Shown here: piece after piece, positions 9,566 to 26,486 of the stretch | Numbering within the stretch: the first letter of the stretch is position 1 | Layout of the letters: the number at the start of each line of letters is the position of its first letter | NCBI GenBank assembly: GCA_019240655.1 | Contig: JAFAXX010000123.1 | Span: forward strand, 1 to 40,920 | DNA: 40,920 bases | Reading direction: 5' to 3' | Source of the DNA: Solirubrobacterales bacterium | GTDB lineage: Bacteria; Actinomycetota; Thermoleophilia; Solirubrobacterales; Solirubrobacteraceae | Program-made: the position numbers and the translations under genes | Notes under the pieces: model-generated | Told to the model about the DNA's origin: nothing | The model's database searches: none | Seen by the model: only the letters and a program-made list of their open reading frames with translations

Positions 9566-9883
9566 GTGTCATTCCTGCTTGCCTGTCCCAACTGCGGCGT
9601 CCGTGAGGTGTCCGACTTCGGCTACGGCGGCGAGATCTCCTCGCGGCCGGGCGCGGGTGCCGACTTCCGGCAGCTGAACGCCTACAACTATTTCCGCCGC
9701 AACGTGGCCGGCGTCCAGCGGGAGTGGTGGTTTCACCGCTCGGGCTGCCGGGCGTGGTTCATCGCCGAGCGGGACACCCGCACCAACCGCGTGATGTTCA
9801 CCGCGCTGCCCAAGGACGTTCCGCCGGGCGGTGACTCCGGTCCGGCCGAAGGCCCCGAGCCGAAGCGACTCGCGGTCTCGTGA
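9566..9883 (+). CDS. soxD: Sarcosine oxidase / N-methylglutamate dehydrogenase delta subunit
   Basis: This 105-residue protein is the small zinc-binding delta subunit of the heterotetrameric sarcosine oxidase family. GTG start; an in-frame TAG at 9551-9553 rules out an upstream start, and no Shine-Dalgarno is visible. Zinc ligands are visible as C7-PN-C10 near the start and H57-RSG-C61 further on, matching the Cys-Cys-His-Cys arrangement of the family. Other family phrases: FGYGGE, YNYFRRNVAGVQREWWFHRSGCR, WFIAERDT. The C-terminal 20 residues are a Pro/Gly-rich tail. It overlaps soxA by 4 bases (GTGA). The delta subunit bridges alpha, beta and gamma in solved structures. It is first in the operon. 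Confidence 0.92.
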   Translation: MSFLLACPNCGVREVSDFGYGGEISSRPGAGADFRQLNAYNYFRRNVAGVQREWWFHRSGCRAWFIAERDTRTNRVMFTALPKDVPPGGDSGPAEGPEPKRLAVS

Positions 9884-12744
9884 GCCGGCTACCCGAGCAC
9901 CCCGGCGAGCGGATCGACCGCCAGAAAGTGATTCGCTTCAGCTTCGACGGCAAGACGGTCGAGGGCTTCGAGGGCGACACCGTCGGCTCGGCGCTGTACG
10001 CCGCCGGCCGGCGCACGTTCTCGCGCAGCTTCAAGTACCACCGTCGCCGGGGCCTGATGTGCTGCTCGGGGCAGTGCCCGAACTGCATCGTGGCGGTCGA
10101 CGGCGCGCCCGGCGCCCGCGCCTGCACCGAGCCGCTGCGCGAGGGCATGCGGGTCGAGCATCTCAACGCCCGCCCCGGCCTCGAGTTCGACGCGATGCGG
10201 GCCACCGACCTGGTCGGCGGCCCGTTCACGCCCCCCGGCTTCTACTACAAGACGTTCATCCGCCCCCGCCGGCTGTGGCCGCTCTACGAGAAGGTGCTGC
10301 GCCATGCCGCCGGGCTCGGTCGGCTGCCCAGGCAGCAGCCGGAACGGATGTGGCGCACGGAGTACCGCCGCCGCCACGCCGACGTGCTGGTGGTCGGCGG
10401 CGGCGTGGCCGGGCTCGAGGCGGCGCGGGCTGCCAGCCGCCTCGGCGCCGACGTGGTCCTCGCCGAGGAGGGTCCGGAGCTCGGCGGCCGCCGGCTGGTC
10501 GACGAGGCCGGCGAGGGCATCGCGGCGCTCGCGCAGGATCTCCGCGCCGGCGGCGTCGAGGTCCTCACCCGCGCCTCGGCGCTCGGCTACTTCGACGGGA
10601 TCGTGCCGGTGTGGCAAGGCGACACGCTTCACCAGGTGCGCGCCCGCCGTCACGTGTTCGCCACCGGGGGGATCGAGCAGCCACTGCTGTTCGCCGGCAA
10701 CGACCTGCCCGGCGTCATGCTCTCCGACGGCGCCCGGCGCCTGGCCTCGCTGTACTCGGTCAAGCCCGGCTCACGCGCGGTCGTCGTGACCACTTCGGAC
10801 CGCGGCCTCCACGCCGCGCTTGCGCTGCATGAGGTCGGCGTCGAGATCGCCGCGGTGGCCGACCTGCGCCAGCTTTCCGGCGCGCCCGCCCAGGACCTCG
10901 GCGAGCGCGGGATCCGCGTCCTCCCACGCCATACCGTCGTGGAGGCGCGCGGCGGTAAGGCGGTGGCCCAGGCGGTGCTGGCGCCGGTGGGCGGCGAGGA
11001 GGCCGACGAACGCCCGCTCGACTGCGACCTGCTCGTGGTCTCCGGGGGGAGCGCGCCGGCCACGTCGCTCCTGCTCCAGGCCGGCGCTCGAACCGCCTAT
11101 GACGCCGCCCGCGGCGGCTTCGCGCTGTCCGAGCTGCCGGACGGCGTGCAGGCGGCGGGCGAGGTGGCCGGCGCCGGTGAGCCCGACTCGGTGGCGCCCT
11201 CGGGCGAGCTCGCGGGGCTCGAGGCGGCACACGCGGTCGGTCTCGGCGACGAGCGCAGCGGCGCGCGGGTGCCCGAGCTGCGCGAGGCGCTCGCCGTGGC
11301 CAGGGCCGGCCGCCCGGCGGTGGCGGTTCCGCCGCCGGCGTCCGGAGCACGCCGTGGCAAGTGCTTCGCCTGCCTGTGCGAGGACGTCACCAGCAAGGAC
11401 ATCGCCTACAGCGTCAAGGAGGGGTATGACTCGATCGAGCTCTGCAAGCGCTACACGACGGTGACCATGGGCCCGTGCCAGGGGCGGATGTGCCAGCTGC
11501 CCTCGATCGCCCTGATGGCCCAGGAGACCAGTCAGAGCCTCGCCGACGTGGGGACCACGACCGCGCGCCCGCCGTGGCGTTCAGTGCCGATGGGCGTGCT
11601 GGCCGGCCGGCCGATCGATCCGGCCAAGCGCTCTGCCATCCACGGGCGCCACCGCGACCTCGGCGCCAACGTGAAGTGGGCCGGCGACTGGCGCCGGCCC
11701 TACGACTACGGCGACCCCCAGGCCGAGGCGCTGGCGGTGCACCACGGTGCCGGCCTGATCGACGTCTCGACGCTCGGCAAGCTGCTCGTCCGCGGCGCGG
11801 AGGCCGGCGCGTTCCTCGACCGCGTCTACCCGAACCGCTTCTCCGATCTGAGGCCCCGGCGGATCCGCTACGGCGTCGTCAGCTCGGACGCGGGGCGGAT
11901 CCTCGACGATGGCACGATCTGCCGGCTCGACCAGGAGACCTTCTATGTCACGACGACCTCGAGCGGAGCCGGCGCGATCGAGGAGTGGTTCTCCTGGTGG
12001 CTCGCCGACTCGGACCTCGAGGTGCGGCTGACCGACCTGACCCAGGGCGTCGGCGCGGTCAACCTCGCCGGTCCGCGGGCGCGGGAGATCATCAGCGCGG
12101 TGACCGACGTCGACTGCTCGAACGAGGCCTTCCCCTACCTCGACGCCAGGCAGGGTCGGCTCGCCGGCGTCCGCTGCTTGATCCTGCGGATCGGCTTCGT
12201 CGGCGAGGTCGGCTACGAGATCCACTTCCCCGCCGCCTACGGCGAGCACGTGTGGGACGCGCTGCTCGAGGCGGGCCGGCCGTACGGCATACGACCCTTC
12301 GGGCTCGAGCCCCAGCGGATCCTCCGCCTGCAGAAGCTGCACGTCCTGGTCGGCCAGGACACCGACTCGGAGTCGACGCCGTTCGGCGCCGCGATGCCGT
12401 GGATCGTCAAGCTCGACAAGGACGGAGACTTCATCGGCCGCTCCGCGCTCGAGCACTACGCGCGCGAGACCCCGGCCACCTCGCTGGTCGGCTTCACGAT
12501 GAGCGACGGACACGTGCCGTCGGAGGGCGCCGTGGTGGTCGACGAGCGCGGGACGCCGGCCGGGCAGGTGACCAGCTCCCGATACTCGCCGGTCCTCGGC
12601 CGGGTGATCGGAATGGCCTGGGTGCCGAGCGCGCTCGCCCGCGACGGCGTGTCGATCACGATCTCCGACGAGGGGCAGAAGCTCACCGCGGAGCTTCGTA
12701 CGCGGCCGTTCTACGACCCGGACGGAGAGGTGCTGCGCTCGTGA
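9880..12744 (+). CDS. soxA: Sarcosine oxidase / NMG dehydrogenase alpha subunit with two Fe-S motifs
   Basis: A 954-residue protein. Order of domains: Fer2-type domain (about 15-105), NAD/FAD Rossmann domain beginning ADVLVVGGGVAGLEAARAAS (about 167-186), second dinucleotide-binding half, BFD-like domain (about 490-545), and a C-terminal GcvT-type folate-binding domain (about 575-954). In characterised alpha subunits the GcvT part binds tetrahydrofolate, so that the methyl group leaves as 5,10-methylene-THF. Unlike typical SoxA, which has lost its cluster ligands (recalled sequences read ..EEPNAL.. and ..NDVT..), this one has C61-x4-C66-x2-C69-x12-C82 and C498-x-C500-x32-C533-x4-C538, both complete 2Fe-2S patterns. 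FYYKTFIRPRRLW and FKYHRRRG are family marks. GTGA overlaps join it to soxD and soxG. Confidence 0.92.
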   Translation: MSRLPEHPGERIDRQKVIRFSFDGKTVEGFEGDTVGSALYAAGRRTFSRSFKYHRRRGLMCCSGQCPNCIVAVDGAPGARACTEPLREGMRVEHLNARPGLEFDAMRATDLVGGPFTPPGFYYKTFIRPRRLWPLYEKVLRHAAGLGRLPRQQPERMWRTEYRRRHADVLVVGGGVAGLEAARAASRLGADVVLAEEGPELGGRRLVDEAGEGIAALAQDLRAGGVEVLTRASALGYFDGIVPVWQGDTLHQVRARRHVFATGGIEQPLLFAGNDLPGVMLSDGARRLASLYSVKPGSRAVVVTTSDRGLHAALALHEVGVEIAAVADLRQLSGAPAQDLGERGIRVLPRHTVVEARGGKAVAQAVLAPVGGEEADERPLDCDLLVVSGGSAPATSLLLQAGARTAYDAARGGFALSELPDGVQAAGEVAGAGEPDSVAPSGELAGLEAAHAVGLGDERSGARVPELREALAVARAGRPAVAVPPPASGARRGKCFACLCEDVTSKDIAYSVKEGYDSIELCKRYTTVTMGPCQGRMCQLPSIALMAQETSQSLADVGTTTARPPWRSVPMGVLAGRPIDPAKRSAIHGRHRDLGANVKWAGDWRRPYDYGDPQAEALAVHHGAGLIDVSTLGKLLVRGAEAGAFLDRVYPNRFSDLRPRRIRYGVVSSDAGRILDDGTICRLDQETFYVTTTSSGAGAIEEWFSWWLADSDLEVRLTDLTQGVGAVNLAGPRAREIISAVTDVDCSNEAFPYLDARQGRLAGVRCLILRIGFVGEVGYEIHFPAAYGEHVWDALLEAGRPYGIRPFGLEPQRILRLQKLHVLVGQDTDSESTPFGAAMPWIVKLDKDGDFIGRSALEHYARETPATSLVGFTMSDGHVPSEGAVVVDERGTPAGQVTSSRYSPVLGRVIGMAWVPSALARDGVSITISDEGQKLTAELRTRPFYDPDGEVLRS

Positions 12745-13382
12745 GCCTCGAGTTCCTGACCCTCGACGCGCCCGCGGTGGCTCGCAGCCCGATGGAGCGT
12801 CAGGCCCGCGCCGCCGGCGCCCGCTTCGAAGTCCGCGACGGCTGGAACGTCGCCGTCGACTACGGCGCCCCGGAGCGCGAGCGGGAGATCTGCCGCACCG
12901 CCGCGGGCTGGGCCGATGTCTCACATCTGGCCAAGCTCGAGCTGCAGGGCGACCACGGCCTCGCCGGCGTCACCCGCCGCGGAGGCGCCTGGTGGTGTCC
13001 GGTCAGCGACCGGCGCGCGCTCGTGCTCGGTGCGCGCGGCTCCATGCCGGGTCCGGACGAGACCGAGCCCGAGGCGCGGGTACACGTGGTCGAGGTCACC
13101 TCCAACTTCGCCGCCCTGACCCTCATCGGCCCACTTGCCCGGGAGGTCGTCGCGCGCTTCTGCGCGCTCGACCTGCGGCCGCAGGCCACCCCGGTGGGCA
13201 GCTTGCGCCCGGGCTCGGTCGCCCGCCAGCCGGGGATGGTGCTGCGCGAGGGCGAGCACCGCTTCATGCTCCTGTTCGGGTGGGCGATCGGCGAGTACAT
13301 GTGGACAGTGGTGCAGGACGCCGCGACCCATCTCGGCGGCGGCCCGGTCGGCCAGAGCGCGCTCGAGGGCGCCGATGCTTGA
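12741..13382 (+). CDS. soxG: Sarcosine oxidase / NMG dehydrogenase gamma subunit
   Basis: A 213-residue protein starting at the GTG that overlaps the soxA stop (GTGA), which gives MSLEFLTLDAP. It shows the GcvT-like pattern of SoxG: an early SPMERQARAAGARFEVRDGW, AGWADVSHLAKLELQG, then VHVVEVTSNFAALTLIGPLA and VGSLRPGSVARQPGMVL, and a late FMLLFGWAIGEYMWTVV. In solved heterotetramers the gamma subunit resembles the folate domain of alpha but does not bind the cofactors, and helps assemble the complex. Its position, between alpha and beta, and the 8-base overlap with soxB support cotranslation. Gamma subunits diverge strongly, so position adds weight to the call. Confidence 0.88.
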   Translation: MSLEFLTLDAPAVARSPMERQARAAGARFEVRDGWNVAVDYGAPEREREICRTAAGWADVSHLAKLELQGDHGLAGVTRRGGAWWCPVSDRRALVLGARGSMPGPDETEPEARVHVVEVTSNFAALTLIGPLAREVVARFCALDLRPQATPVGSLRPGSVARQPGMVLREGEHRFMLLFGWAIGEYMWTVVQDAATHLGGGPVGQSALEGADA

Positions 13383-14592
13383 CATCTTCCGCCGGCGGCG
13401 CATGTGGCGCCGGCAGCGCGAGCTGAAAGGCTCCTACGACGTCGTGATCATCGGCGGCGGCTCGCACGGGCTGGCCACCGCGTACTACCTGCAGCGCGAG
13501 CACGGCATCCGCGACGTGGCCGTGCTCGAGCAGCGCTACATCGGGTCCGGCGCCGCCGGGCGCAACACGACGATCCTACGCTCGAACTACAAGACGCTCG
13601 AGGGGGCCCGGTTCTACGACGCGAGCGTGAAGCTGTATGAGGGACTCTCCCAGGAGCTCGATTTCAACCTCCTGTTCTCGCAGTGCGGCCACCTGACGCT
13701 GGCTCACTCCGACCGGGCGATGTTCGTGATGGCCAACCGGGCCGAGGTCAACCGGCTGAGCGGGATCGACTCGCGGGTGATCTACCCGGAGGAGATCAAG
13801 CGGCTCGCGCCGGCGATGCGGGTCGACAATCCGCACGCCACCTATCCGATTGTCGGGGCGCTCTATCACCCGCCCGGCGGGATCATTCGCCACGACGCCG
13901 TCGTCTGGGGATTGGCCCGCGGCGCCGACCGCGGCGGGGTGGAGATTCATCAGAACACCGAGGTGACGGGGCTCGAGCGCACGAATGGGCGCGTCACCCG
14001 CGTGCGCACCAACCGGGGCACGGTCAACGCCGGTCAGGTGCTGAACTGCACCGCCGGCTGGAGCACGCTGATCAGCGACATGGCGGGCGTGCCGCTGCCG
14101 ATCACCACGCACATCCTCCAGGCCTGCGTCACCGAGCCGATGAAGCCGCTGCTCGACGTCGTCGTCGTCTCCTCCCAGATGCACGTCTACATCAGCCAGA
14201 CCGACCGCGGAGAGTTTCTCATGGGCGCCGAGATCGAGCCGTGGACGACGTACCGGATGCAGGGGACGCTGAACTTCCTCCAGGAAGTCTCACGCCACAC
14301 GCTCGAGCTCTTCCCGCAGCTCGAGCGCGCACGCCTCCTGCGCAGCTGGGCCGGTCTCTGCGACCTGAGTCCTGACTACAGCCCGATTCTCGGCAAGACC
14401 GAGGTGGAGAACTTCCACGTCAGCGCCGGATGGGGCACCTACGGCTTCAAGGCCGCTCCCATCGTCGGCAAGACCCTCGCCGAGCTGGTGGCCACCGGCC
14501 GCACGCCGGAGCTGATCGCCCCCTTCGCGGTCGAGCGCTTCTACGAGGATAAGCTCGTTTCCGAGCTTGCCGCCGCCGCCGTCAGCCATTAG
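13375..14592 (+). CDS. soxB: Sarcosine oxidase / NMG dehydrogenase beta subunit, flavin oxidase
   Basis: A 405-residue FAD/FMN oxidase subunit in which the N-methyl amino acid is oxidised. It starts at an ATG overlapping soxG by 8 bases. After the basic opening MLDIFRRRRMWRRQRELKG comes the FAD-binding motif VVIIGGGSHGLATAYYLQ (23-40) and ARNTTILRSNY-like GRNTTILRSNY, a mark of SoxB. H173 in GGIIRHDAVVWG sits at the residue number where the covalent FMN is attached in characterised heterotetrameric sarcosine oxidases. GWGTYGFKAAPIVGKTLAEL closes the FAD domain. Substrate choice between sarcosine and N-methylglutamate cannot be read from these motifs. The gene order D-A-G-B differs from the common B-D-A-G. 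Confidence 0.93.
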   Translation: MLDIFRRRRMWRRQRELKGSYDVVIIGGGSHGLATAYYLQREHGIRDVAVLEQRYIGSGAAGRNTTILRSNYKTLEGARFYDASVKLYEGLSQELDFNLLFSQCGHLTLAHSDRAMFVMANRAEVNRLSGIDSRVIYPEEIKRLAPAMRVDNPHATYPIVGALYHPPGGIIRHDAVVWGLARGADRGGVEIHQNTEVTGLERTNGRVTRVRTNRGTVNAGQVLNCTAGWSTLISDMAGVPLPITTHILQACVTEPMKPLLDVVVVSSQMHVYISQTDRGEFLMGAEIEPWTTYRMQGTLNFLQEVSRHTLELFPQLERARLLRSWAGLCDLSPDYSPILGKTEVENFHVSAGWGTYGFKAAPIVGKTLAELVATGRTPELIAPFAVERFYEDKLVSELAAAAVSH

Positions 14593-14596
14593 CCAC

Positions 14597-14605
14597 AGGA
14601 GGGAG
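14597..14605 (+). promoter_or_regulatory. Strong ribosome binding site of fhs
   Basis: AGGAGGGAG lies just before the ATG at 14609. It selects this start over an in-frame upstream ATG at 14567 that lies inside soxB. Confidence 0.75.
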
Positions 14606-14608
14606 CAG

Positions 14609-16294
14609 ATGAAGAGCAGCCTGGAGATAGCGCAGGAGCACGAGCTCGTCCCGATCGAGTCGATCGCCGAGCGCGCCGGCCTCGAGCCGGAGGAGATCGA
14701 GCCCTACGGGCGCTACAAGGCCAAGGTCTCGCTGTCGGTGCTCGACCGCCTCAAGGACGTCAAGGACGGAAAGCTGGTCTGCGTCACCGGCATGACCCCG
14801 ACGAAGGCGGGCGAGGGCAAGACCACGACCCTGGTCGGGCTGACCCAGGGCCTCGGCGTGATCGGGAAGAACCCGGTCGCCTGCCTGCGCGAGGCGTCGG
14901 TCGGACCGGTGTTCGGAGTCAAGGGCGGCGCGGCCGGCGGCGGCCTCACCCAGGTGGTGCCGATGGAGGACCTGAACCTGCACTTCACCGGCGACATCCA
15001 CGCGATCGGAGCGGCCAACAACCTGCTCGCGGCGATGATCGACGCCTCGATCCTGCACGGCAACGCGCATAAGATCGACGCGCTGCGCGTCTCCTGGCGG
15101 CGCGCCGTGGACATGAACGACCGCGCGCTTCGGCACATCGCGATCGGCCTCGGCGGGCGGGCCAACGGGTATCCGCGGGAGAGCGGTTTCGACATCACCG
15201 CCGCCTCGGAGGTGATGGCGATCATGGCGGTGGCGCGTGACCTGCACGATCTTCGCCGCCGGCTGTGCAACATCACCGCCGCGTACTCCTACGACGGCGG
15301 CAAGCCGATCACCGCCGAGGACCTCAGCGCCGCCGGGGCCATGACCGTGTTGCTCAAGGAGGCGCTCAAGCCGAACCTCGTGCAGACGCTCGAAGGCCAG
15401 CCGGTGATGATGCACTGCGGTCCGTTCGCCAACATCGCCCACGGCAACAACTCGCTGATCGCCGACCTGATCGGCATGAAGCTGGGCGACTACGTCGTCA
15501 CCGAGTCGGGCTTCGGCGCCGACATGGGGATGGAGAAGTTCTTCGACATCGTCTGCCGCTTCGGCAAGCTGACCCCGTCGGCGGCGGTGCTGGTGAGCAC
15601 CGTGCGCGCAGTCAAGCACCACGGCGGCGTCGCCGACGCGGATGATCCGCGCGTCGACCGCAGCGCCAGCCTGCACGCAATCGAGGTGGGAATGGCCAAC
15701 GTCCGCCGCCATCTGGGGATCATCCGGACGTTCGGCGTCCCTGCTGTCGTCGCGGTCAACCGGCGTCCCGGCGACACCAACGAGGAAGTCGAGATGGTCA
15801 AGCGCCTGGCCCTCGAGGCGGGCGCGTTCGCGGCCGAGGCCAACGAGGGATTCACCAAGGGCGGACCCGGTGTGGCGGACCTCGCCGAGGCGGTCGTCGC
15901 GGCGTGCGAGGAGCCGAACACCTTCCACCAGCTCTACGAGGACGACGAGCCTATCCAGGACAAGATCGAGGCCGTGGCCAAACGGGTGTACGGCGCCCGG
16001 GACGTCTACTACTACCCGGAAGCCGAGGCTAAGCTCGGCCAATTCACCCGGCAGGGGCTCGCGCACTACCCCGTGTGCATGGCCAAGACCCACCTGTCGC
16101 TGTCCGCCGACCCGACGCTCCTGAACGCGCCCGAGAACTTCACCCTCCCGGTCCGGGACATCCGCGCCTACACCGGAGCCGGCTGGCTCGTCCCCCTCTG
16201 CGGGGACATCGTCCAGATGCCCGGCCTCGGCAAGACGCCGGCGGCGCTGAATGTCGACATCGATGAGGACGGTAGGACCGTCGGCCTCTTCTGA
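14609..16294 (+). CDS. fhs: Formate-tetrahydrofolate ligase
   Basis: A 561-residue enzyme that interconverts formate + THF + ATP and 10-formyl-THF + ADP + Pi; near the family's usual size of about 557. The nucleotide-binding loop is GMTPTKAGEGKTTTLVGL. Other family stretches: REASVGPVFGVKGGAAGGG, NLHFTGDIHAIGAANNLLAA, GFGADMGMEKFFDIVCR, ATVRA-type segment STVRAVKHHGG, GMANVRRHLGIIRTFGVPAVV, and the end LCGDIVQMPGLGKTPAALNVD. It begins 16 bases after soxB. With the next gene it would take the methylene-THF made by the Sox complex toward formate with ATP gain, or run in reverse for assimilation. A methylene-THF dehydrogenase (folD) is not in the window. Confidence 0.97.
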   Translation: MKSSLEIAQEHELVPIESIAERAGLEPEEIEPYGRYKAKVSLSVLDRLKDVKDGKLVCVTGMTPTKAGEGKTTTLVGLTQGLGVIGKNPVACLREASVGPVFGVKGGAAGGGLTQVVPMEDLNLHFTGDIHAIGAANNLLAAMIDASILHGNAHKIDALRVSWRRAVDMNDRALRHIAIGLGGRANGYPRESGFDITAASEVMAIMAVARDLHDLRRRLCNITAAYSYDGGKPITAEDLSAAGAMTVLLKEALKPNLVQTLEGQPVMMHCGPFANIAHGNNSLIADLIGMKLGDYVVTESGFGADMGMEKFFDIVCRFGKLTPSAAVLVSTVRAVKHHGGVADADDPRVDRSASLHAIEVGMANVRRHLGIIRTFGVPAVVAVNRRPGDTNEEVEMVKRLALEAGAFAAEANEGFTKGGPGVADLAEAVVAACEEPNTFHQLYEDDEPIQDKIEAVAKRVYGARDVYYYPEAEAKLGQFTRQGLAHYPVCMAKTHLSLSADPTLLNAPENFTLPVRDIRAYTGAGWLVPLCGDIVQMPGLGKTPAALNVDIDEDGRTVGLF

Positions 16295-16298
16295 TTCG

Positions 16299-16856
16299 AT
16301 GCGCGATCAGCGGCTGAGCGAGCTGCTCGACGCGGTGGCCGCGCGCACGGCCGCTCCGGGCGGCGGCTCGACCGCCGCCTGCACCTGCGCGCTGGCGGCG
16401 GCGGTGACCGAGATGGCGGCGCGCTTCGCGGGCCCCGAGCTCGAGCCGATCGGGGCGCGCGCCGTCGAGCTGCGCGAGCGCGCGCTCGAGCTTGCCGACC
16501 GGGAGCTGCACGCCTACGAGCCGGTGCTGGCCGCCCTGCGGCTGCCGCGAGAGGATCCGAAGCGCGAGCAGCGGCTGCGCAACGCCCGCGCGCAAGCCGC
16601 GGAAACCCCGCTGGCCCTGGCGGTGGTTGCGGTTGAGGTCGCCGAGCTCGCCGCCGGAGCGGTGCGGGAGGGCAATCACCACCTGGCCGGCGATGCGATC
16701 ACCGGCGCGCTGCTGGCCGAGGCGGCCTGCGCCGCGGCCGCGCGGTTGGTCGAGATCAACCTGGCCGGCGATCCCGGGCCGGGGGCGCGGGCGGAGGCGG
16801 CCGAGCTCGCGCGGCGAGCCGGCGCGGCGCGGGAAGCGGCGCTCGCCGGCGCGTAG
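16299..16856 (+). CDS. fchA: Methenyl-THF cyclohydrolase / formiminotransferase-cyclodeaminase family
   Basis: A 185-residue protein starting 4 bases after the fhs stop. It belongs to the cyclodeaminase/FchA fold, shown by the opening LLDAVAARTAAPGGGSTAAC, the all-alpha composition, ADRELHAYEPVLAALRLPRE, and EGNHHLAGDAITGALLAEAA followed by LVEINLAGD. Members either remove ammonia from formimino-THF or open 5,10-methenyl-THF to 10-formyl-THF (FchA). Next to fhs and a methylene-THF-generating oxidase, and without a formiminotransferase domain, cyclohydrolase is the more likely role. It is the last gene of the sox-fhs operon. Confidence 0.85.
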   Translation: MRDQRLSELLDAVAARTAAPGGGSTAACTCALAAAVTEMAARFAGPELEPIGARAVELRERALELADRELHAYEPVLAALRLPREDPKREQRLRNARAQAAETPLALAVVAVEVAELAAGAVREGNHHLAGDAITGALLAEAACAAAARLVEINLAGDPGPGARAEAAELARRAGAAREAALAGA

Positions 16857-16871
16857 GCTCTTCGGTCGGGC

Positions 16872-19780: not shown

Positions 19781-19782
19781 GA

Positions 19783-21075
19783 TCAGCTCCACGGATAGGG
19801 GCTGTGCGAGACCGGGTGTAGGTCCCCCGTACGGAAGCGCTCGAAGCGGAAGGGATGCAGCAGCGAGGAGTGCTCGCCCTCGAGCACGCGGGCGATCTCC
19901 CGGCCCACCGCGATCATCTTGTAGCCGTGGTTGGAGTCGGCGGCCACGAACACGTTGGGAAGCATGTAGTCGAACACCGGGAAGTTGTCGACCGTGAACG
20001 CGCCCACGCCACCGGAGCGCACCTGGCGGTAGAGCTCGCGGGCGCCCTCGAAGCGCCCCAGGCAGTGCGAGAGCGCGGCCGACCACAGGTCGGGGAAGCC
20101 GGGCTCGACCGTGCCGGTCGGGTATGGGTCGACGTCGAACCGTTCGCCGACCGGCAGCGGCTGCGCCCCGCCCTGGACGCCCCGCCGGTCGGGCTTGAAG
20201 TAGACGCCCCATGGCTCGGCGGTGATCAGGCGGCCGGCGTCGTCGTGCAGCGGCTGGTCGCTGTCGATGTGGAGCACCGGCGAGGAGCGCCCGGCGGCGG
20301 TGGTGAACCTGGCCGGATCGAACGCGACCTCGCCCTCCTGCAGGTACCAGTACGTCCACATCGGCAGGTCGGGGCGCACCTCGCCGTCGGGCTGAAGGAC
20401 GTCGATTCGCTCGGGAAGACCGAGCATCCGCCAGATCGAGGCGATCCAGGGTCCGACAGCGACCACCACCTGATCGACGTCGATGTCCCCCTGGTTGGTC
20501 TCGACGCGGGCCACGGCTCCGGAGCCGTCGAGCGCAAAGCCGGTCACCTGCGCGCCCTCGCGGATCTCTGCGCCGGCCGCGCGCGCCTTGTCGGCGAGGC
20601 CGCGTATCGATTCGCGGTTGAAGGCGTAGCCGCCGGCGTGCTCGTGCAAGCAGACGGTCAGGCCAGGGGCGCGCCAGTCGGGATACAGGGAGTGCATGTG
20701 CTGCGTGACCGCGTCCTCGCCGACGTGTAACTCGGACGGATAGCCGATTCGCTGCTGGCGCTCGTGCACCTCGATCAGGTCGCTCTCCTGGGCCGGCGGC
20801 CCGAGCGCGACGTACCCGGTCCCGTGATAGTGCAACGACTCGGGATCGGACTCCCACACCTCGACGCACGCGGCCATCAGCTCGGACATGGCCGGCTGGA
20901 AATAGTTGTTGCGGATCACTCCGCAGGCGATGCCGGAGGCGCCGGCGGCCACGCCCTGCTTGTCGAGGACCAGCGAGGGCCGCCCGCGGCGGCCGAGGTG
21001 CCACGCCGTCGAGAGGCCGTGGACGCCGCCACCGATGATCAGGATGGACGCCGAAGCGGGTAAGCGGTCAGGCAT
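19783..21075 (-). CDS. FAD-dependent amine oxidase of the DAO family
   Basis: A 430-residue flavoprotein. The ATG at 21075 is chosen because GGAG stands 9 bases before it; the frame runs on to an ATG at 21129 without a ribosome binding site. FAD motif: ILIIGGGVHGLSTAWHLGRR (about 11-30), then DKQGVAAGASGIACGVIRNN, a mark of sarcosine/dimethylglycine-type oxidases. The substrate domain lies between; the end carries GVGAFTVDNFPVFD and VAADSNHGYKMIAVGREIAR, which close the FAD site. Members oxidise secondary or N-methyl amino acids. It is transcribed away from glnT, with a shared 291-base promoter region, which suggests oxidation of a related glutamylated or N-methylated intermediate. A PuuB-like role is an alternative. 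Confidence 0.87.
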   Translation of the reverse strand: MPDRLPASASILIIGGGVHGLSTAWHLGRRGRPSLVLDKQGVAAGASGIACGVIRNNYFQPAMSELMAACVEVWESDPESLHYHGTGYVALGPPAQESDLIEVHERQQRIGYPSELHVGEDAVTQHMHSLYPDWRAPGLTVCLHEHAGGYAFNRESIRGLADKARAAGAEIREGAQVTGFALDGSGAVARVETNQGDIDVDQVVVAVGPWIASIWRMLGLPERIDVLQPDGEVRPDLPMWTYWYLQEGEVAFDPARFTTAAGRSSPVLHIDSDQPLHDDAGRLITAEPWGVYFKPDRRGVQGGAQPLPVGERFDVDPYPTGTVEPGFPDLWSAALSHCLGRFEGARELYRQVRSGGVGAFTVDNFPVFDYMLPNVFVAADSNHGYKMIAVGREIARVLEGEHSSLLHPFRFERFRTGDLHPVSHSPYPWS

Positions 21076-21119
21076 GGCGGCTGCTCCAGTTGAGTCGCGT
21101 GGGGTCTGTTGCCATAGAT

Positions 21120-21132
21120 GCAATGGCATTGC
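21120..21132. promoter_or_regulatory. 13-base palindrome upstream of the FAD oxidase
   Basis: GCAATGGCATTGC is palindromic around its central base. It overlaps a second inverted repeat, GCCAT-7 bases-ATGGC (21111-21127). Lying 45 bases before the oxidase start on the minus strand, it is a candidate operator different from the one at glnT. Confidence 0.4.
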
Positions 21133-21200
21133 GTAACGTGCTATAGGAGATTAGCCGAGGCTCGGGGACGGCCGCGGCCCGCGCGCCTCGCGTGCGGATC

Positions 21201-21229: not shown

Positions 21230-21233
21230 ACGG

Positions 21234-21251: not shown

Positions 21252-21354
21252 TCCAGACCGGCCGCGACGGTGCGGCCGGCAAGGGGCGGGGCGCGGCCGA
21301 GGCGCCGCCCACCCGCGCCAAAGCGTGCGGGCTCGCTTGCTCGTCTGAGGGACG

Positions 21355-21360
21355 AAAGGA
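21355..21360 (+). promoter_or_regulatory. Ribosome binding site of glnT
   Basis: AAAGGA lies directly before a GTG (21361) but 6 bases before the ATG at 21367, so the ATG is the likely start. Confidence 0.6.
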
Positions 21361-21366
21361 GTGCAG

Positions 21367-22851
21367 ATGGCGATAGTCGAGAGGACGGAGCCGGGCGGCG
21401 AGCACACGGCGCCGGGGCAGCTATTCGGCGGCAGCGTCGAGCACGTCCTGCGCAGCCCGAGGATCTCGCCCCCGCCGACGACCCTCGAGGAGGCTCGGCA
21501 CGCCCCGGGACGGGCCGAGAAGATCGAGCAGCTGACCCGCCGGATCGAGTCCGAGGGAATCAAGTACGTCTTCTTCCAGCAGGTCTCGGTGACCGGGCGG
21601 GTGATGGGCAAGGGGGTCGTCTCCTCGTTCTTCCCGCAAGTGGCCGAGAAGGGCTACCAGCTCGTCTATGGTGCCACCGCCAATCTGTTCACCGACCGCT
21701 ACGGAGACTACATCGGCTTCGGTCCCGAGGAGTCAGAGCTCGCGGCTGTCGCCGACCTGGACACGTTCGCGGTGCTGCCGTGGGACGACCGGGTGGCGCG
21801 CGTCTACTGTGACTGCTACGACACCGAGACCGGCGAGCTGCTCGACGCCGACCCGCGGCAGAATCTCAAGCGGGTGGCACACGAGTTCGAGCAGGAGCTC
21901 GGATACCAGTTCCTGATCGGGATCGAGCCCGAGATGATGTGGCTGCGGCGCGGCTTTGACGGTGCCGTCCCCGAGGGGGTGACCAAGCCGTACTGCTACC
22001 ACATTCACCAGTTCGAGGAGCTCCGTCCAGTGCTGCTCGACGTGGTCGAGTACGGGCAGGCGCTGGGGCTCGACATGAGCTACGGCGACCATGAGGACGC
22101 GCCCGGCCAGCTCGAGCTGAACTTCCGCTTCGACCGGCCGGTACGCACGGCCGACAACATCACCACCTATCGCCAGATCTGCGCGGCGGTGGGACGCAAG
22201 CACGAGCTGCTCCCGTGCTTCATGCCGAAGCCGTTCACTGGCGTCTCGGCCAACGGCCACCACCACCACTTCACGTTGATCGACGAATCGGGCAAGAACG
22301 TCTTCCACGATCCGGAGGGGCCGGCCCAGCTCTCGCAGATCGCTCGGCACTTCCTGGGCGGGATGCTCGATCACTTCCCCGCGCTGATGTGCGTGGGTAA
22401 CCCGACGGTGAATTCCTACTGCCGCATGTGGGACACCGGCTTCTGGGCTCCGATCTACAAGAACTGGGGCTGGCAGAACCGAACCACCACGGTCCGCGTG
22501 GCCGCCGGTGGTCGCTTCGAGTACCGCGGGGTCGACTCCTCGTGCAATCCCTACCTCAGTGTCGCCACGCTGCTGCGGGCCGGGCTCGACGGCGTGCGCC
22601 GCCAGGTCGACCCCGGGCCGCCACAGCAGGGCAACACCTACGAGCTGCTGCGCGGCGGCGCCGCCATCGAGAAGGTACCCGACAGCCTCGGAGCGGCGCT
22701 CGACGCGTTGGCCGGCGACGAGGTCATCCGCAGCGCGATGCCGGGCCGGCTCTACAAGGTCTTCCACCACTACAAACGCGACGAGTGGGAGCGCTACCTG
22801 GCCGCGGTGACCGACTGGGAGCGCGATGAGTACCTGGAGGTGCTGCCCTGA
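21367..22851 (+). CDS. glnT: GlnT-type glutamine synthetase / gamma-glutamylmethylamide synthetase
   Basis: A 494-residue ATP-dependent ligase of the glutamine synthetase superfamily. The core is that of GlnT/GMAS proteins: VFFQQVSVTGRVMGKGV near the start, the metal-binding IGIEPE (184-189), the segment GDHEDAPGQLELNF (240-253), PKPF (287-290) and NGHHHHF (296-302), then RMWDTGFWAPIYKNWGWQNR. Family members make glutamine, or gamma-glutamylmethylamide from glutamate and methylamine (GMAS). Placement directly before glxB, glxC and glxD favours the second role. The first roughly 50 residues extend beyond the core and look disordered. The gene has its own promoter and operator, and its stop overlaps the glxB start by one base. 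Confidence 0.88.
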   Translation: MAIVERTEPGGEHTAPGQLFGGSVEHVLRSPRISPPPTTLEEARHAPGRAEKIEQLTRRIESEGIKYVFFQQVSVTGRVMGKGVVSSFFPQVAEKGYQLVYGATANLFTDRYGDYIGFGPEESELAAVADLDTFAVLPWDDRVARVYCDCYDTETGELLDADPRQNLKRVAHEFEQELGYQFLIGIEPEMMWLRRGFDGAVPEGVTKPYCYHIHQFEELRPVLLDVVEYGQALGLDMSYGDHEDAPGQLELNFRFDRPVRTADNITTYRQICAAVGRKHELLPCFMPKPFTGVSANGHHHHFTLIDESGKNVFHDPEGPAQLSQIARHFLGGMLDHFPALMCVGNPTVNSYCRMWDTGFWAPIYKNWGWQNRTTTVRVAAGGRFEYRGVDSSCNPYLSVATLLRAGLDGVRRQVDPGPPQQGNTYELLRGGAAIEKVPDSLGAALDALAGDEVIRSAMPGRLYKVFHHYKRDEWERYLAAVTDWERDEYLEVLP

Positions 22852-23786
22852 TGTGCGGGATCGCCGGGATCATTTACCGCAACGGCGACGGCGCCCACCG
22901 GATCGGGCGCGACCTGACCCGGATGCTGCAGTCGATGAAGCATCGCGGCCCGGACTCCACCGGCTACGCGCTCTACACCGTGCCGCGTGAGGAGCTGATC
23001 CTGAGGGTCAAGCTGGCCGACTCCCACGACCTCGACGACATCGACGCCGCCGAGGACATCCGCCGCCGGCGCCGGCAGGCCGAGGCGCGCATCCGCGCGG
23101 CCGGCGCGCGGATCGTCTCCAGCGAGGACATCAATCCCTACACGTTCGCCGCCACCCTCGATTACGCCGGCGATCTCAAGCGGCTGGCCGACCACGTCGA
23201 GTCGGTCCCCCGCGCCGAGGTGCTCTCGCTCGGCCACGCGCTCGAGATTGTCAAGGACCTCGGCGACGCCGGCACGGTGGCGCGCTCCTACGGCCTCGAC
23301 GGCTACATGGGCAGCCACGGCATCGGCCACGTGCGAATGGCCACCGAGTCCGACGTCGACATCTCCAACGCCCACCCGTACTGGGCCTACCCGTTCTCCG
23401 ACGTGGCGGTGGTCCACAACGGGCAGCTGACCAACTACCACCATTGGCGCCGGCGCCTCGAGGCGGCCGGCCACCGCTTCGCCTCCGACTGCGACTCGGA
23501 GATCATCGCCGTCTACCTGGCCGAGCGGATGAGCCAGGGCGACTCGCTCGAGGCGGCCATGGTGCGCAGCCTCGAGGAGCTCGACGGTGTGTTCACCTAC
23601 ATCTGCGTGACCGAGGATGCCCTCGGCGTGGCCAAGGACGAGCTGGCCGCCAAGCCCCTCGTGCTCTACGAGGGAGACGACATGATCGCGCTGGCTTCCG
23701 AGGAGATGGCGATCCGCACCGTGATCGACCGGGAGATCGAGACCTACGACCCGTACGAGAGCCAGGTGATGGTGTGGAAGCGGTGA
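22851..23786 (+). CDS. glxB: Class II glutamine amidotransferase (GlxB / NMG synthase subunit A type)
   Basis: A 311-residue Ntn-type amidotransferase. It starts MCGIAGI, so Cys2 becomes the N-terminal nucleophile after Met removal. Glutamine-pocket residues are visible in HRGPDS (31-36), GHVRMAT (159-165), NAHP (173-176), HNGQLTN (189-195) and DCDSE (213-217). A charged helical insertion (about 45-120) separates the first two motifs. The protein is the stand-alone equivalent of the amidotransferase domain of glutamate synthase. In the NMG route the corresponding subunit (MgsA) releases or transfers the amine from the gamma-glutamyl amide. It overlaps glnT by one base and glxC by four, so translation is coupled. 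Confidence 0.88.
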   Translation: MCGIAGIIYRNGDGAHRIGRDLTRMLQSMKHRGPDSTGYALYTVPREELILRVKLADSHDLDDIDAAEDIRRRRRQAEARIRAAGARIVSSEDINPYTFAATLDYAGDLKRLADHVESVPRAEVLSLGHALEIVKDLGDAGTVARSYGLDGYMGSHGIGHVRMATESDVDISNAHPYWAYPFSDVAVVHNGQLTNYHHWRRRLEAAGHRFASDCDSEIIAVYLAERMSQGDSLEAAMVRSLEELDGVFTYICVTEDALGVAKDELAAKPLVLYEGDDMIALASEEMAIRTVIDREIETYDPYESQVMVWKR

Positions 23787-24574
23787 CCGCGCCAGGCCAG
23801 GCGCGCGAGGCGCGGTTCGACGCCCGGGGCCTGGTCGAGCTCGACGAGAGAGTCCCGAACGTCGCGGAGATCGAAGGTGGGCGCGCGCGCTTCGACGCCC
23901 GCGACCTGACGACGCGTCAGATCAACCTCGAGCTGCGGCGGCTGATCTACGGCGAGGGCATCGCCGACGTGGTAGTGGCCAATCCGGGGGCGCGCCACTC
24001 CCTCGGCGTGGGGATTCTGGCCCGCTGCCGGATCGCCTTCGAGGGCAGCCTCGGCTACTTCGCCTGCGGCATGATCGACGGCCCGGAGGTGACGATCTTC
24101 GGGCGCGTCGGCTGGTCGGCGTGCGAGAACATGATGTCGGGCACCGTGTTGATCGAAGGCAACGCCGGCTCGCTCACCGGCGCGGCGATCCGTGGCGGCG
24201 ACCTCGTGGTCAAGGGCAGTGTCGGGGCCCGCACGGGCATCGACCAGAAGGGCGGCACGATCCTCACCCTTGGCAACGCCGGTTCGATGACCGGCTTCAT
24301 GATGCAGCGCGGGCGGCAGATCATCTGCGGCGACGCCGGACCGGGACTCGGCGACTCGATGTACGACGGCGTGATCTACGTGGCCGGCAAGGTCAAGTCG
24401 CTCGGCATCGACTGCGTGCCGGGCGAGTGGACCGACGCCGACAGCGAGCTGATCGAGCGCAAGTTCTCGATTTACGAGCTTGGCACGCCGCCCCGCTTCG
24501 AGAAGTTCGTGTGCGGCAAGAAGCTCTACAACTACGACTCGCTCGAGCCCAGCGAGCGGCGAATCGTGCTCTAG
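23783..24574 (+). CDS. glxC: GXGXG beta-helix subunit (GlxC / NMG synthase subunit B type)
   Basis: A 263-residue protein starting at a GTG overlapping the glxB stop (GTGA). It corresponds to the C-terminal GXGXG domain of glutamate synthase, a right-handed beta-helix with no catalytic residues of its own. Repeats are easily read: GSLGYFACGMIDGPEVTIFG, RVGWSACENMMSGTVLIEG, NAGSLTGAAIRGGDLVVKG, SVGARTGIDQKGGTILTLG, NAGSMTGFMMQRGRQIICG, DAGPGLGDSMYDGVIYVAG. In the whole enzyme this helix holds the amidotransferase and FMN domains together, around an ammonia tunnel. The split into three genes is the rule for GlxBCD and MgsABC. Confidence 0.9.
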   Translation: MTAPGQAREARFDARGLVELDERVPNVAEIEGGRARFDARDLTTRQINLELRRLIYGEGIADVVVANPGARHSLGVGILARCRIAFEGSLGYFACGMIDGPEVTIFGRVGWSACENMMSGTVLIEGNAGSLTGAAIRGGDLVVKGSVGARTGIDQKGGTILTLGNAGSMTGFMMQRGRQIICGDAGPGLGDSMYDGVIYVAGKVKSLGIDCVPGEWTDADSELIERKFSIYELGTPPRFEKFVCGKKLYNYDSLEPSERRIVL

Positions 24575-24585
24575 GAGGACTCGCG

Positions 24586-26040
24586 ATGGCCGACGAAACC
24601 GCACCCATGCGCCGCAACCAGCTCGGGCACAGCCGGATCTTCACGCCCGAGGTGATCAACGACATCCACGTGAAGTCCGAGCTCGGGCGCTACCGCATGC
24701 GGGGCTTCTCGATGTTCAAGAAGATTCCGCACTGGGACGAGCTGATGTTCCTGCCCGGGACGCTGACGCGGTTCGTGATCGAGGGCTACCGGGAAAAGTG
24801 CGTGACCAAGACGGTGCTCGGCGCGCGCTTCGCCAAGAAGCCGATCCAGCTCGAGATCCCGATCTACATCACCGGGATGAGCTTCGGCGCGCTCTCGCTC
24901 GAGGCCAAGATGGCGCTGGCCAAGGGCGCGTCGATGGCTGGCAGCGCGACCTGCTCGGGCGAGGGCGGGATGATCCCGCCCGAGCGGGATCTCTCGATCA
25001 AGTGGTACTACCAGGTGATTCAAAGCCGGTATGGCTTCAATCCCCACCACCTGATGCTGGCCGACGCCTGTGAGTTCTTCATCGGCCAGGGCTGCAAGGT
25101 CGGCCTCGGCGGGCATCTGATGGGTCAGAAGGTGACCGAGCAGGTGGCCGAGATGCGCTCCCTGCCGGTGGGGATCGACCAGCGCTCCCCCGCCCGCCAT
25201 CCGGACTGGCTCGGCCCCGACGATCTCTCGCTGAAGATCCAGGAGGTCCGCGAGGCGACCAACTACGAGATACCGATCCAGCTGAAGCTGGGCGCCGCCC
25301 GCGTCTACGACGACGTGCGCATGGCGGCCAAGTGCGGGCCGGACGTGATCTACCTCGACGGGGCCGAGGGGTCCACCGGCGCCGGTCCCCACACCGCCAC
25401 CGAGGAGACCGGCATCCCGCTGATGGCGGCGATTCCGGAGGCCCGGCGCGCGCTCGAGGACGTCGGCCTGGCCGACGAGATCGATCTGGTCGTGGCGGGC
25501 GGCATCCGCAACGGCGCCGACGTGGCCAAGTGCCTGGCCCTCGGGGCCAAGGCGGTGGCGATCGGCCACTCGGCCTTGATCGCGCTCAACTGCAACAAGG
25601 AGATACCCGGGGTCACCGACTACGAGGGTACGGTCGGCGTCCCGGCCGGCCAGTGCTACCACTGCCACACCGGGCGCTGCCCGGTCGGCGTGACGACGCA
25701 GGACCCGGAGCTGCGCAAGCGCCTGGTCGTCGACGAGGCGGCCCAGCGCGTGTACAACTTCCTGCACACGATGACGCTCGAGTGCCAGATGCTGGCCCGG
25801 GCGTGCGGGAAGACCAGCGTGCACAGCCTCGAGCCCGAGGATCTCTGCGCGCTGACCGTCGAGGCGGCGGCGATGGCACGGGTGCCGCTGGCCGGCACCG
25901 ACTACATCCCGGGGGTCTCCGAGGAGCGCACGCTGCAGCGGATCGAGCGGATGCTCGAGCGCCATCTGGAGAACCCCATCGACTACCTGGCCCCCGAGGC
26001 CGAACGCGTCGGGACCCTGGGCGAGGGAGGTGCGGTGTGA
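24586..26040 (+). CDS. glxD: Glutamate-synthase-like FMN subunit (GlxD / NMG synthase subunit C type)
   Basis: A 484-residue FMN/Fe-S protein equal to the synthase domain of glutamate synthase. AGGAGG 7 bases before the ATG fixes the start. Family motifs: YITGMSFGALSLEAKMALAK, TCSGEGGM, IQLKLGAARVYDD (the usual K..P..G reads differently here), YLDGAEGSTGAGP, LVVAGGIRNGADVAKCLALG and IGHSALIAL. The cysteines C357-x2-C360-x4-C365 in QCYHCHTGRCPVG stand where glutamate synthase holds its 3Fe-4S cluster, but with a closer first pair than the usual C-x5-C-x4-C. In the NMG route this subunit (MgsC) would form N-methylglutamate. It overlaps the next gene by four bases. Confidence 0.9.
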   Translation: MADETAPMRRNQLGHSRIFTPEVINDIHVKSELGRYRMRGFSMFKKIPHWDELMFLPGTLTRFVIEGYREKCVTKTVLGARFAKKPIQLEIPIYITGMSFGALSLEAKMALAKGASMAGSATCSGEGGMIPPERDLSIKWYYQVIQSRYGFNPHHLMLADACEFFIGQGCKVGLGGHLMGQKVTEQVAEMRSLPVGIDQRSPARHPDWLGPDDLSLKIQEVREATNYEIPIQLKLGAARVYDDVRMAAKCGPDVIYLDGAEGSTGAGPHTATEETGIPLMAAIPEARRALEDVGLADEIDLVVAGGIRNGADVAKCLALGAKAVAIGHSALIALNCNKEIPGVTDYEGTVGVPAGQCYHCHTGRCPVGVTTQDPELRKRLVVDEAAQRVYNFLHTMTLECQMLARACGKTSVHSLEPEDLCALTVEAAAMARVPLAGTDYIPGVSEERTLQRIERMLERHLENPIDYLAPEAERVGTLGEGGAV

Positions 26041-26486
26041 GCGCCACCGGACACCACCTCCCGGCCGAGCCGGAGAAGATCGTCTCGATCGACGCCGAGT
26101 ACCTCGCCGGCCGGCGCTTTCCCTACCAGGAGGACATTTCGCTGGTCGAGCACGTCGACCTGATGGCGGCCACGCCGGGCCAGGACCTCAACTGGCTCGA
26201 GGACGTCACGCTGCTCGAGGAGGAAGGGACCCCGGCGGTGTTCGACCGCTACTCGAACTCGTTCGTGAAGATCTACTTCCCGATCCCCGACGGACGCGAG
26301 GACGAGATCGCTCGCAAGGTGCTGATCAAGCACCTGCAGTCGGGCAACTCCTACGGCATCGCCCTCAAGGAGCGCCACTGCAAGTTCCCCCAGCCGCAGC
26401 TCGGACCATGGGTGACCGGGTCGAAGACGGTGGGGACGGATTGGCGACCGAGCGTGCTCGAAGGCTGGGAGCCTCCGGCGCACTAG
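26037..26486 (+). CDS. Unknown 149-residue protein cotranslated with glxD
   Basis: GTG start overlapping the glxD stop (GTGA). I do not recognise the family. The protein is acidic and soluble, with no signal peptide or membrane segment. Visible segments: IVSIDAEYLAGRRFPYQEDI, VEHVDLMAATPGQDLNWLED, a beta-type stretch SNSFVKIYFPIPDGREDEIA, then RKVLIKHLQSGNSYGIALKE and a Trp/Pro-rich end. Codon use is like its neighbours. The four-base overlap with a split glutamate synthase and the good protein-like composition make it a probable accessory or assembly subunit of that enzyme, but this is inference from position alone. Confidence 0.75.
   Translation: MSATGHHLPAEPEKIVSIDAEYLAGRRFPYQEDISLVEHVDLMAATPGQDLNWLEDVTLLEEEGTPAVFDRYSNSFVKIYFPIPDGREDEIARKVLIKHLQSGNSYGIALKERHCKFPQPQLGPWVTGSKTVGTDWRPSVLEGWEPPAH

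Follow-up and report, generated by a model that had tools for sequence, protein, structure and literature searches.

Two described systems for the use of methylated amines are closest to the locus presented here: the N-methylglutamate pathway with GmaS (GMAS), MgsABC, and MgdABCD, and the Tmm-Tdm-DmmDABC route. Reference clusters of Paracoccus have been assigned to the N-methylglutamate pathway, as on pAMI6 of P. aminophilus (PMC4543880; our locus L205), where mutational tests are reported for the tmm and dmm genes rather than for the Mgs genes. The Dmm route has been described in connection with metformin (PMC9800807), in Nesterenkonia (PMC8875376), and in work on Ruegeria regulation (PMC13390433). 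In SAR11, tmm, tdm, and gmaS have been reported without dmmDABC, and the absence of dmmDABC from SAR11 and from abundant marine Gamma- and Deltaproteobacteria has been called intriguing, with the suggestion that DMA (dimethylamine) may accumulate (Lidbury et al. 2017, PMC5520151). For Arthrobacter and Mycobacterium, Tmo has been described with no separate DMA enzyme (McTaggart et al. 2015, PMC5023230). Here we analyse the contig JAFAXX010000123.1 (C96) of a Solirubrobacterales bacterium, an actinobacterium of soil type, whose glnT-glxB-glxC-glxD genes are followed by a fifth gene, orf149. We call these five genes module A, and the whole contig of 40,920 bases the window; it is part of a draft genome of 4.06 Mb in 191 contigs (91.5% complete).

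The original prediction had read soxD-A-G-B, fhs, and a cyclohydrolase homologue, followed by glnT-glxB-C-D with regulators in between, as a complete N-methylglutamate-type pathway in a probable thermoleophilian. All of these genes are present and in frame where they had been placed, and the same-genus genomes G010, G009, and G022 carry Solirubrobacterales titles, in agreement with the proposed host (G and L numbers denote genomes and loci of our data sets). Two items lay outside that prediction, namely orf149, whose stop codon coincides with its end point at 26486, and Tdm. Judged by sequence, we are highly confident that module A is a distinct sister module of GMAS/Mgs. It likely acts in the use of amines derived from trimethylamine N-oxide (TMAO) or trimethylamine (TMA). 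The amine itself is derived from genomic company; module A most likely consumes DMA, with chances that we regard as evenly balanced.

Module A and the GMAS/Mgs type

Two sets of GlxD are found in the window's genome and 60 relatives from the same genus, family, and order. GlxD of module A has 86-93% identity to the window's protein and occurs in 11 of these 61 genomes including the window's own, while the second set (glxBCD-B, or Mgs type) has 51-55% identity and occurs in 13; in these and all further genome counts, the Mgs type is assigned by identity (49-59%) and not by tree, and GlxD matches at 40-47% are not counted. Two further genomes contain only weaker GlxD matches (44 and 47%). The window's own genome has a single GlxD match (E up to 1e-40), which is of type A. 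In two relatives (G030, G060) glxBCD-B runs directly into soxD-A-G-B with glnT-B on the other strand, and in two others (G059, G057) glnT-B-glxBCD-B faces the sox block. In the trees the B proteins nest with Mgs and GMAS of Paracoccus, Rhizobium, Methylobacterium, and Acinetobacter, whereas the window's proteins do not. A first GlxD tree placed GlxD-A separately with 100/100 support, on a long branch that raised the program's long-branch warning. In a wider tree, 31 A rows and 19 Mgs-type rows were split with the same support and in all 200 bootstrap trees. In the GlnT tree the window and four relatives join glutamine-synthetase-like proteins of S. clavuligerus, R. opacus, Ruegeria, and Paracoccus sp. 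TOH (100/100), and these five rows stand apart from 13 GMAS rows of Paracoccus, Rhizobium, Methylobacterium, and Acinetobacter. Because the tree test failed for both proteins, module A is not filed as a member of GMAS/Mgs. Nor is it simply the local version of Mgs, because the two sets frequently coexist: of 50 module-A genomes, 39 possess a further GlxD whose identity of 49-58% falls within the range of the Mgs type, and in five of 80 loci both types are found on the same locus (L157, L185, L189, L191, L192). The identification of GlnT-GlxBCD as plain GMAS and Mgs is thus ruled out by the trees and by the coexistence with a second set, and the original assignment has to be given up at this point, given also that relatives hold true GMAS and Mgs as separate genes beside the same Sox.

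Module A nevertheless very probably works like GMAS/Mgs. Five residues of GlxB (Cys2, Arg162, Asn190, Gly191, and Asp215) are common to type A (62 rows) and the Mgs type (10 rows) with at least 97% conservation; we take them to be the catalytic residues of class II glutaminases. The window's GlnT scores 334.5 bits against TIGR03105, below the cut-off of 469.6. The methylamine pocket of RhGmaS consists of Lys30', Tyr147, Gln175, Asp177, Glu179, Glu186, and Asn188 (PMC7948447). Six of these (K30', Y147, D177, E179, E186, N188) are retained in 55 of 55 GlnT-A rows, and the seventh, Gln175, in 50, the window's protein and four others having Tyr instead; GlnT rows were kept only if more than 430 positions matched, and the S. 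clavuligerus row, which is out of frame, is not among the 55. GMAS and A are also set apart by fixed replacements, among them Gly231 by Ala and Asp148 by His in P. aminovorans numbering. Of the four other glutamine-synthetase matches in the genome, three were compared; these differ from GmaS at Tyr147, Asp177, and Asn188, and two of them also at Lys30'. Because the pocket residues are retained in GlnT-A while the other glutamine synthetases compared differ, GlnT-A looks like an amine ligase rather than an ammonia ligase. The proposal of a route resembling the N-methylglutamate pathway is supported by six of the seven pocket residues, and is not supported by the placement of GlnT and GlxD outside GMAS and Mgs. 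For RhGmaS, DMA is a substrate with a Km some 600-fold above the value for monomethylamine (MMA; PMC7948447), so that a specialised DMA ligase would be chemically reasonable.

The fifth gene, orf149, belongs to no Pfam or NCBIfam family, with matches at chance level only. Its profile has a single match among the PDB sequences (E 0.21), and for its AlphaFold model (pLDDT 86.6) none of the Foldseek matches reached an E of 0.001, the best listed probability being 0.10. We used orf149 as the marker for module-A loci. It has at least 576 confirmed relatives, the best 80 of which represent the 80 loci discussed here; the 50 module-A genomes are those of 50 of these loci, mostly the longer ones, and L125, L126, and L127 are identical to contigs of G010, G009, and G022, respectively. 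GlxD-A was found in 79 of the 80 loci, and in 79 of 80 orf149 lies within 200 bp behind glxD. In the exception, L129, orf149 starts 121 bases from the contig start. According to record titles the actinobacterial carriers comprise Solirubrobacterales and other Thermoleophilia, Acidimicrobiia, Pseudonocardia, Amycolatopsis, Actinomycetospora, and Geodermatophilaceae, and the other carriers are one Chloroflexi bacterium, Rhodobacter, Roseovarius, Rhodospirillaceae, and gammaproteobacterial genomes. The proteobacterial-type GlxD-A share 74-78% with the window's GlxD. Locus L201 is titled Oceanobacillus, has a contig G+C content of 67.5%, and its GlxD is found among those of Rhodobacter and Roseovarius. 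This contig is probably foreign, and therefore Bacillota are not counted as a carrier phylum. Two loci titled Bifidobacterium breve (L143, L147) contain module A, a tdm piece, and a gene for an acyl-CoA-dehydrogenase-fold (ACAD) protein, and are probably mislabelled bins. The gammaproteobacterial contig L202 has two orf149-like stretches about 6 kb apart (8987-9328 and 15079-15420), one of which is behind module A. Among the loci with Mgs-type genes, glnT-glxBCD of the Aquabacterium olei plasmid (L095, 4369-13341) lies close to hutG, which encodes N-formylglutamate deformylase, to HutD, and to a SoxB-like oxidoreductase; this may be a variant that oxidises N-methylglutamate to N-formylglutamate.

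Tdm and the amine of module A

Tdm lies 3.4 kb beyond the stop of orf149 on the opposite strand, and retains both Asp by which PDB 9q5a differs from 9q59, the latter named trimethylamine N-oxide demethylase. Because Tdm is nearby, the setting is that of methylated-amine metabolism, and in this respect, including the exit enzymes for one-carbon (C1) units on folate, the original prediction is supported. The link to DIMETHYLAMINE is that the product of Tdm is DMA (PMC5023230, PMC13390433). Among the 61 genomes, module A is found in eight of nine Tdm genomes versus three of 52 others (Fisher p 5e-7); this and the other Fisher values and counts ignore shared descent and come from draft genomes, which is a first point against DMA as the substrate. 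In 396 genomes drawn evenly across the phylum, Tdm occurs in 11, module A in 11, and both in nine, so that A is found in nine of 11 Tdm genomes versus two of 385 others (p 5e-15), or in eight of 10 versus two of 385 if the window's genome is left out (p 1.5e-13). By contig number, coordinates, and score, G369, G375, and G423 of this sample are identical to G084, G095, and G100. The Mgs-type GlxD is less tied to Tdm, which is present in seven of the 19 genomes of that type. Even among these 19, A is found in five of the seven with Tdm versus two of the 12 without (p 0.03).

The marker for DMA monooxygenase, PF11927 (the DUF3445 subunit), has no match in the window's genome, and is absent from all nine Tdm genomes of the 61-genome set, the window's included; the same search was positive in Deinobacterium chartae and in the relative G016. 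The latter has the Mgs type without A and Tdm, and its PF11927 gene is 17 kb from glxD. In the 50 module-A genomes, PF11927 was found in five and is absent from 45, and Tdm matches were found in 40. Nine have Tdm and A without Mgs-type GlxD or PF11927, two of them being Amycolatopsis taiwanensis (G096) and Pseudonocardia sp. TRM90224 (G105). Module A is thus found where a DMA enzyme is lacking. Over the 80 loci, the neighbours of module A include tdm in 20 (in two of these, L172 and L188, only the C-terminal half matches), Tmm in 14, TMA dehydrogenase (TMADH) in two, and the Mgs type in five, and subunits of Dmm in none. Also in favour of DMA, the three same-genus A genomes without Tdm (G003, G010, and G014) are the only ones of 12 with a TMADH signature in the best PF00724 match. 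This was judged by a regular expression, applied to the top PF00724 match of each genome (12 out of 27 matches); for the one of the three that was checked (L113), the match to PDB TMADH has an E of 1.8e-270.

Based on this company, the following route can be proposed. Tdm would convert TMAO to DMA and a C1 unit, and GlnT-A would join DMA to glutamate at the expense of ATP, giving gamma-glutamyl-dimethylamide. Inside the GlxBCD-A complex GlxB-A would free DMA, which GlxD-A would add reductively to 2-oxoglutarate, by analogy with Mgs, to yield N,N-dimethylglutamate. The oxidoreductase dao and/or SoxDAGB would strip off both methyl groups and leave glutamate. The Sox complex would hand the methyl groups to tetrahydrofolate, and Fhs and the cyclohydrolase would release the C1 unit as formate with a gain of ATP. 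For orf149, a role as accessory subunit of the ligase or the synthase could be envisaged. If a SoxB-like flavoenzyme performed the demethylation in two steps, no free MMA would need to form. In a literature search at the level of titles and abstract openings, with most subscription journals and preprints outside its coverage, we found no description of a second GMAS/Mgs-like module, nor of DMA use through gamma-glutamyl-dimethylamide or N,N-dimethylglutamate, and dimethylglutamate and dimethylamine were nowhere found together.

Several observations, in addition to the shared descent mentioned above, weigh against this route. Every enzymatic step after Tdm is one that we infer. Ten of the 50 module-A genomes have no Tdm match, and in G099 Tdm is represented by the C-terminal half alone, in a frame of 392 residues. 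The TMADH-type proteins could be DMA dehydrogenases that yield MMA. G060, a draft of 84% completeness, has the Mgs type and, at the end of a contig, a C-terminal piece of Tdm with 76% identity, without A or PF11927, and G444 and G204, where PF11927 was not searched, have Tdm without A. By a length rule, 18 of the 30 loci of at least 18 kb have no tdm, Tmm, or TMADH, although in two of these 18 (L143, L147) a truncated tdm is found where the locus ends. In addition, the window's GlnT with its Tyr at position 175 is a sub-variant and may use a different amine from the remaining A ligases.

It could therefore be that module A is a second route for MMA, with GlnT-A as GMAS, GlxBCD-A as an N-methylglutamate synthase of independent lineage, and another enzyme taking DMA, which comes close to the original prediction. 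The retained GmaS pocket would suit this explanation, as would the window's draft genome, which has no other GlxD, and three of whose four other glutamine-synthetase matches fall outside GMAS in the tree (the fourth is cut by a contig end and was not placed). Sox genes, found in 11 of 79 module-A loci, would fit it as well. However, a second MMA route is hard to reconcile with the Mgs-range GlxD that most A genomes already possess, sometimes in the same cluster, or with the association of A and Tdm even among Mgs-type genomes, and it leaves DMA unexplained in the nine genomes with Tdm and A only. We thus consider it unlikely.

Module A might also serve a different amine, such as ethylamine, a polyamine, or similar, and share only regulation or neighbourhood with TMAO use. 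On plasmids, the nearest relatives of GlnT-A belong to the glutamine-synthetase family and are encoded next to aldehyde dehydrogenases, gamma-glutamyl-GABA hydrolases, or a P450, a PuuD-like peptidase is encoded near tdm in the window, and the ten A genomes without Tdm would be readily accommodated. But no GlxBCD was found in the annotated stretches of three such plasmid loci (a fourth is unannotated), and the tight link to Tdm in nine of 11 genomes together with the tdm and Tmm neighbours makes this explanation rather improbable. DMA accordingly remains our preferred substrate. More generally, and with less confidence than for the substrate, we suggest that bacteria of at least two phyla may degrade DMA without DMA monooxygenase or dehydrogenase, via ATP-driven gamma-glutamylation, N,N-dimethylglutamate, and flavoenzymes (dao and the Fe-S-bearing Sox), in some cases perhaps with an ACAD-fold N-oxygenase in place of Tmm. 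If this were true, most of the TMA route would use enzymes that have so far not been assigned to it.

The Sox complex and further genes of the window

The SoxA protein contains two cysteine patterns, C61-x4-C66-x2-C69-x12-C82 within the Fer2_4 domain and C498-x-C500-x32-C533-x4-C538 in a BFD-like domain (Pfam 23.7 bits, cut-off 26), and is predicted to hold the ligands of two [2Fe-2S] clusters. All eight cysteines are present in six of 27 SoxA compared (the window, G010, G055, G059, G060, and L161), and in G030 the set is partly lost. They are missing from all seven SoxA encoded on Mgs-bearing plasmids and from the remaining A-linked Sox that were compared; for A-linked loci, SoxA was retained only where the match exceeded 850 query positions. 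In the printed alignment, 1vrq_A has no Cys at seven of the eight positions, while C82 is outside the aligned part. Because SoxA retains eight cysteines that the aligned parts of 1vrq lack, electrons would leave through Fe-S rather than to oxygen, and the window's Sox is probably a dehydrogenase. An ordinary oxygen-dependent sarcosine oxidase is ruled out by these ligands, which leave the substrate open. The Sox proteins are divergent, since the matches of SoxD, SoxA, and SoxB are strong yet below the curated NCBIfam cut-offs. The gene order soxD-A-G-B of the original prediction is correct and was found identically in five mapped relatives (L075, L076, L081, L082, L083).

Both blocks are often found together: in the 61-genome set, 11 genomes contain module A, and 10 of these have a SoxA orthologue, the exception being G014. 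Between the window and its relatives, full-length SoxA share 61-78% and GlxD 86-93% identity. Because the gene blocks are recurrent in relatives, they are not there by chance. Four Sox-like subunits near GMAS/Mgs-like genes are found in the window and, with the true Mgs type, in G030 and G060. In the SoxB and SoxA trees, the latter built from chosen rows because the SoxB tree contained long single-chain rows, Sox of Mgs-bearing plasmids are found in two places, mixed with Sox that have no glx in the stretches examined, and the window clade is separate. These trees included no PDB sarcosine oxidases; within them SoxB was not placed firmly with sarcosine oxidases, and the blocks do co-occur in relatives, so that neither of these two grounds named for refuting the original prediction applies. 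A function of Sox as N-methylglutamate dehydrogenase is plausible and is not settled by the trees. For a Sox that adjoins Mgs or A, N-methylglutamate and N,N-dimethylglutamate would be fitting substrates. On the other hand the two blocks could be unrelated, one combining C1-folate enzymes with a dehydrogenase for sarcosine (or dimethylglycine), and the other being a block of glutamate metabolism. Sox orthologues in five genomes without a GlxD match at E up to 1e-40 (G002, G011, G018, G019, G052) would agree with this, as would the glyoxylate-reductase-like gene and the BhcR-like regulator that adjoin Sox. It is very improbable, however, given that Sox continues the Mgs-type glxBCD as a single run in G030 and G060 and adjoins glnT-glxBCD in G057 and G059, that nearly all A genomes have Sox, and that Tdm is nearby.

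The gene called dao has a homologue in 38 of 79 module-A loci, in 30 of them on the same strand within 400 bp downstream of orf149, and dao or sox is present in 47 of 79. Its product is a candidate N-alkylglutamate oxidase. The ACAD-like protein beside tdm has Gly at the position of the usual catalytic Glu in all 11 rows that reach the site (two rows are from the same contig). The loss of Glu is weakened as a mark of this protein because, of two further ACADs in the window, the one at 4574-5722 likewise carries Gly at this site; the one at 39864-40901 carries Glu. The protein aligns with DnmZ (4zxv) and the FAD oxidoreductase 4kcf, which are presumably N-oxygenases, less strongly than with true dehydrogenases. 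It was found in eight of 80 loci, Tmm in 14, and both together in none, so it may be an amine (TMA) N-oxygenase doing the job of Tmm; Tmm was not searched for elsewhere in those genomes. In the window itself no Tmm was seen among the genes, the rest of the genome not having been searched for it.

Table 1. Positions, strands, and supporting matches of the features in the window
Feature	Position	Strand	Evidence
soxD-like delta subunit	9566..9883	+	TIGR01374 75.8 bits, cut-off 116.5; orthologues 59-75% identity
soxA-like alpha subunit	9880..12744	+	TIGR01372 755.5 bits, cut-off 1164; Pfam Fer2_4, SO_alpha_A3, Fer2_BFD (below cut-off), GCV_T
soxG-like gamma subunit	12741..13382	+	Pfam GCV_T, SoxG
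soxB-like FAD beta subunit	13378..14592	+	467.7 bits, NCBIfam cut-off 529.5; PDB 1vrq_B E 1.3e-110; orthologues 74-90% in relatives
fhs, formate-tetrahydrofolate ligase	~14609..16294 (start approximate)	+	NF010030 774 bits, cut-off 652
FchA-like methenyl-tetrahydrofolate cyclohydrolase, weak match	~16293..16856 (start approximate)	+	NF045657 72 bits, cut-off 275
2-hydroxyacid dehydrogenase	between sox and glnT blocks	-	
GntR and IclR regulators	between sox and glnT blocks		
dao, SoxB-like single-chain FAD oxidoreductase	19783..21129	-	Pfam DAO; in the PDB, sarcosine oxidases match best, along the first half
glnT-A, predicted gamma-glutamyl-amine ligase of module A	21361..22851	+	Gln-synt_C
glxB-A, class II glutaminase-like subunit	22851..23786	+	five residues common with Mgs-type GlxB
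glxC-A, GXGXG subunit	23783..24574	+	Pfam GXGXG
glxD-A, FMN/Fe-S glutamate-synthase-like subunit	24574..26040	+	Pfam Glu_synthase 304 bits; clade A 100/100
orf149, unclassified fifth gene of module A, 149 residues	26037..26486	+	adjoins glxD
APC-type permease, distant relative of TMAO permease model	27434..28939	-	NF053774 195 bits, cut-off 690
Tdm, trimethylamine N-oxide demethylase	29866..32181	-	NF053776 1164 bits, cut-off 1100; PDB 9q59 E 6.5e-267
ACAD-like protein adjoining tdm	32188..33594	-	full-length ACAD matches; weaker DnmZ (4zxv), 4kcf
PuuD-like C26 peptidase (gamma-glutamyl hydrolase family), near tdm	33747-34496		

Between the two blocks, a glyoxylate/hydroxypyruvate-reductase-like gene (16904-17869) and a BhcR-like IclR regulator (19025-19780) hint at a connection with the metabolism of glyoxylate or the serine cycle. 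Near the contig start (148-3137) there are genes of a SdrD-B/DUF11 repeat protein and of a beta-helix protein, which are surface-protein-like and unrelated to the amine genes.

Comparison with described systems

Module A is a concrete candidate for a DMA route in organisms without a known DMA enzyme, is present in the strains named above, and may, if the DMA reading is true, be the missing DMA route in such bacteria. In addition, because two separate systems share the names glnT and glxBCD, these genes are unsafe as a sign of methylamine use. With the Tmm-Tdm-DmmDABC route of Ruegeria pomeroyi, Methylocella silvestris, and Paracoccus, the window has in common a Tdm with both Asp and an APC-type permease nearby, and differs from it in the lack of a PF11927 match in its genome. 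The heterotetrameric sarcosine oxidases (PDB 1vrq, 2gag) have all four subunits and the GcvT-like folate domain in common with the window's Sox, whose SoxA, in contrast, contains the eight cysteines for two [2Fe-2S] clusters, none of which is found in the aligned part of 1vrq. GlnT-A is nearest to actinobacterial and rhodobacterial glutamine-synthetase-like proteins in the settings of PuuA-like gamma-glutamyl-amine ligases, but is coupled to GlxBCD and orf149, unlike the ligases of the three annotated PuuA-like loci. The N-methylglutamate pathway of Paracoccus aminophilus pAMI6 and P. aminovorans has the same parts: a glutamine-synthetase-type ligase, a class II glutaminase, a GXGXG subunit, an FMN glutamate-synthase domain, a Sox-like complex, and C1-folate enzymes, and in the ligase and the glutaminase subunit most of the active-site residues are also the same. 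The differences are the sequence divergence of the window's GlnT (31-38% identity), GlxB (31-36%), and GlxD (52-56%), the separate GlnT and GlxD clades, the additional orf149, the Sox order D-A-G-B, and the second, Mgs-type GlxD that accompanies module A in 39 of the 50 carriers.

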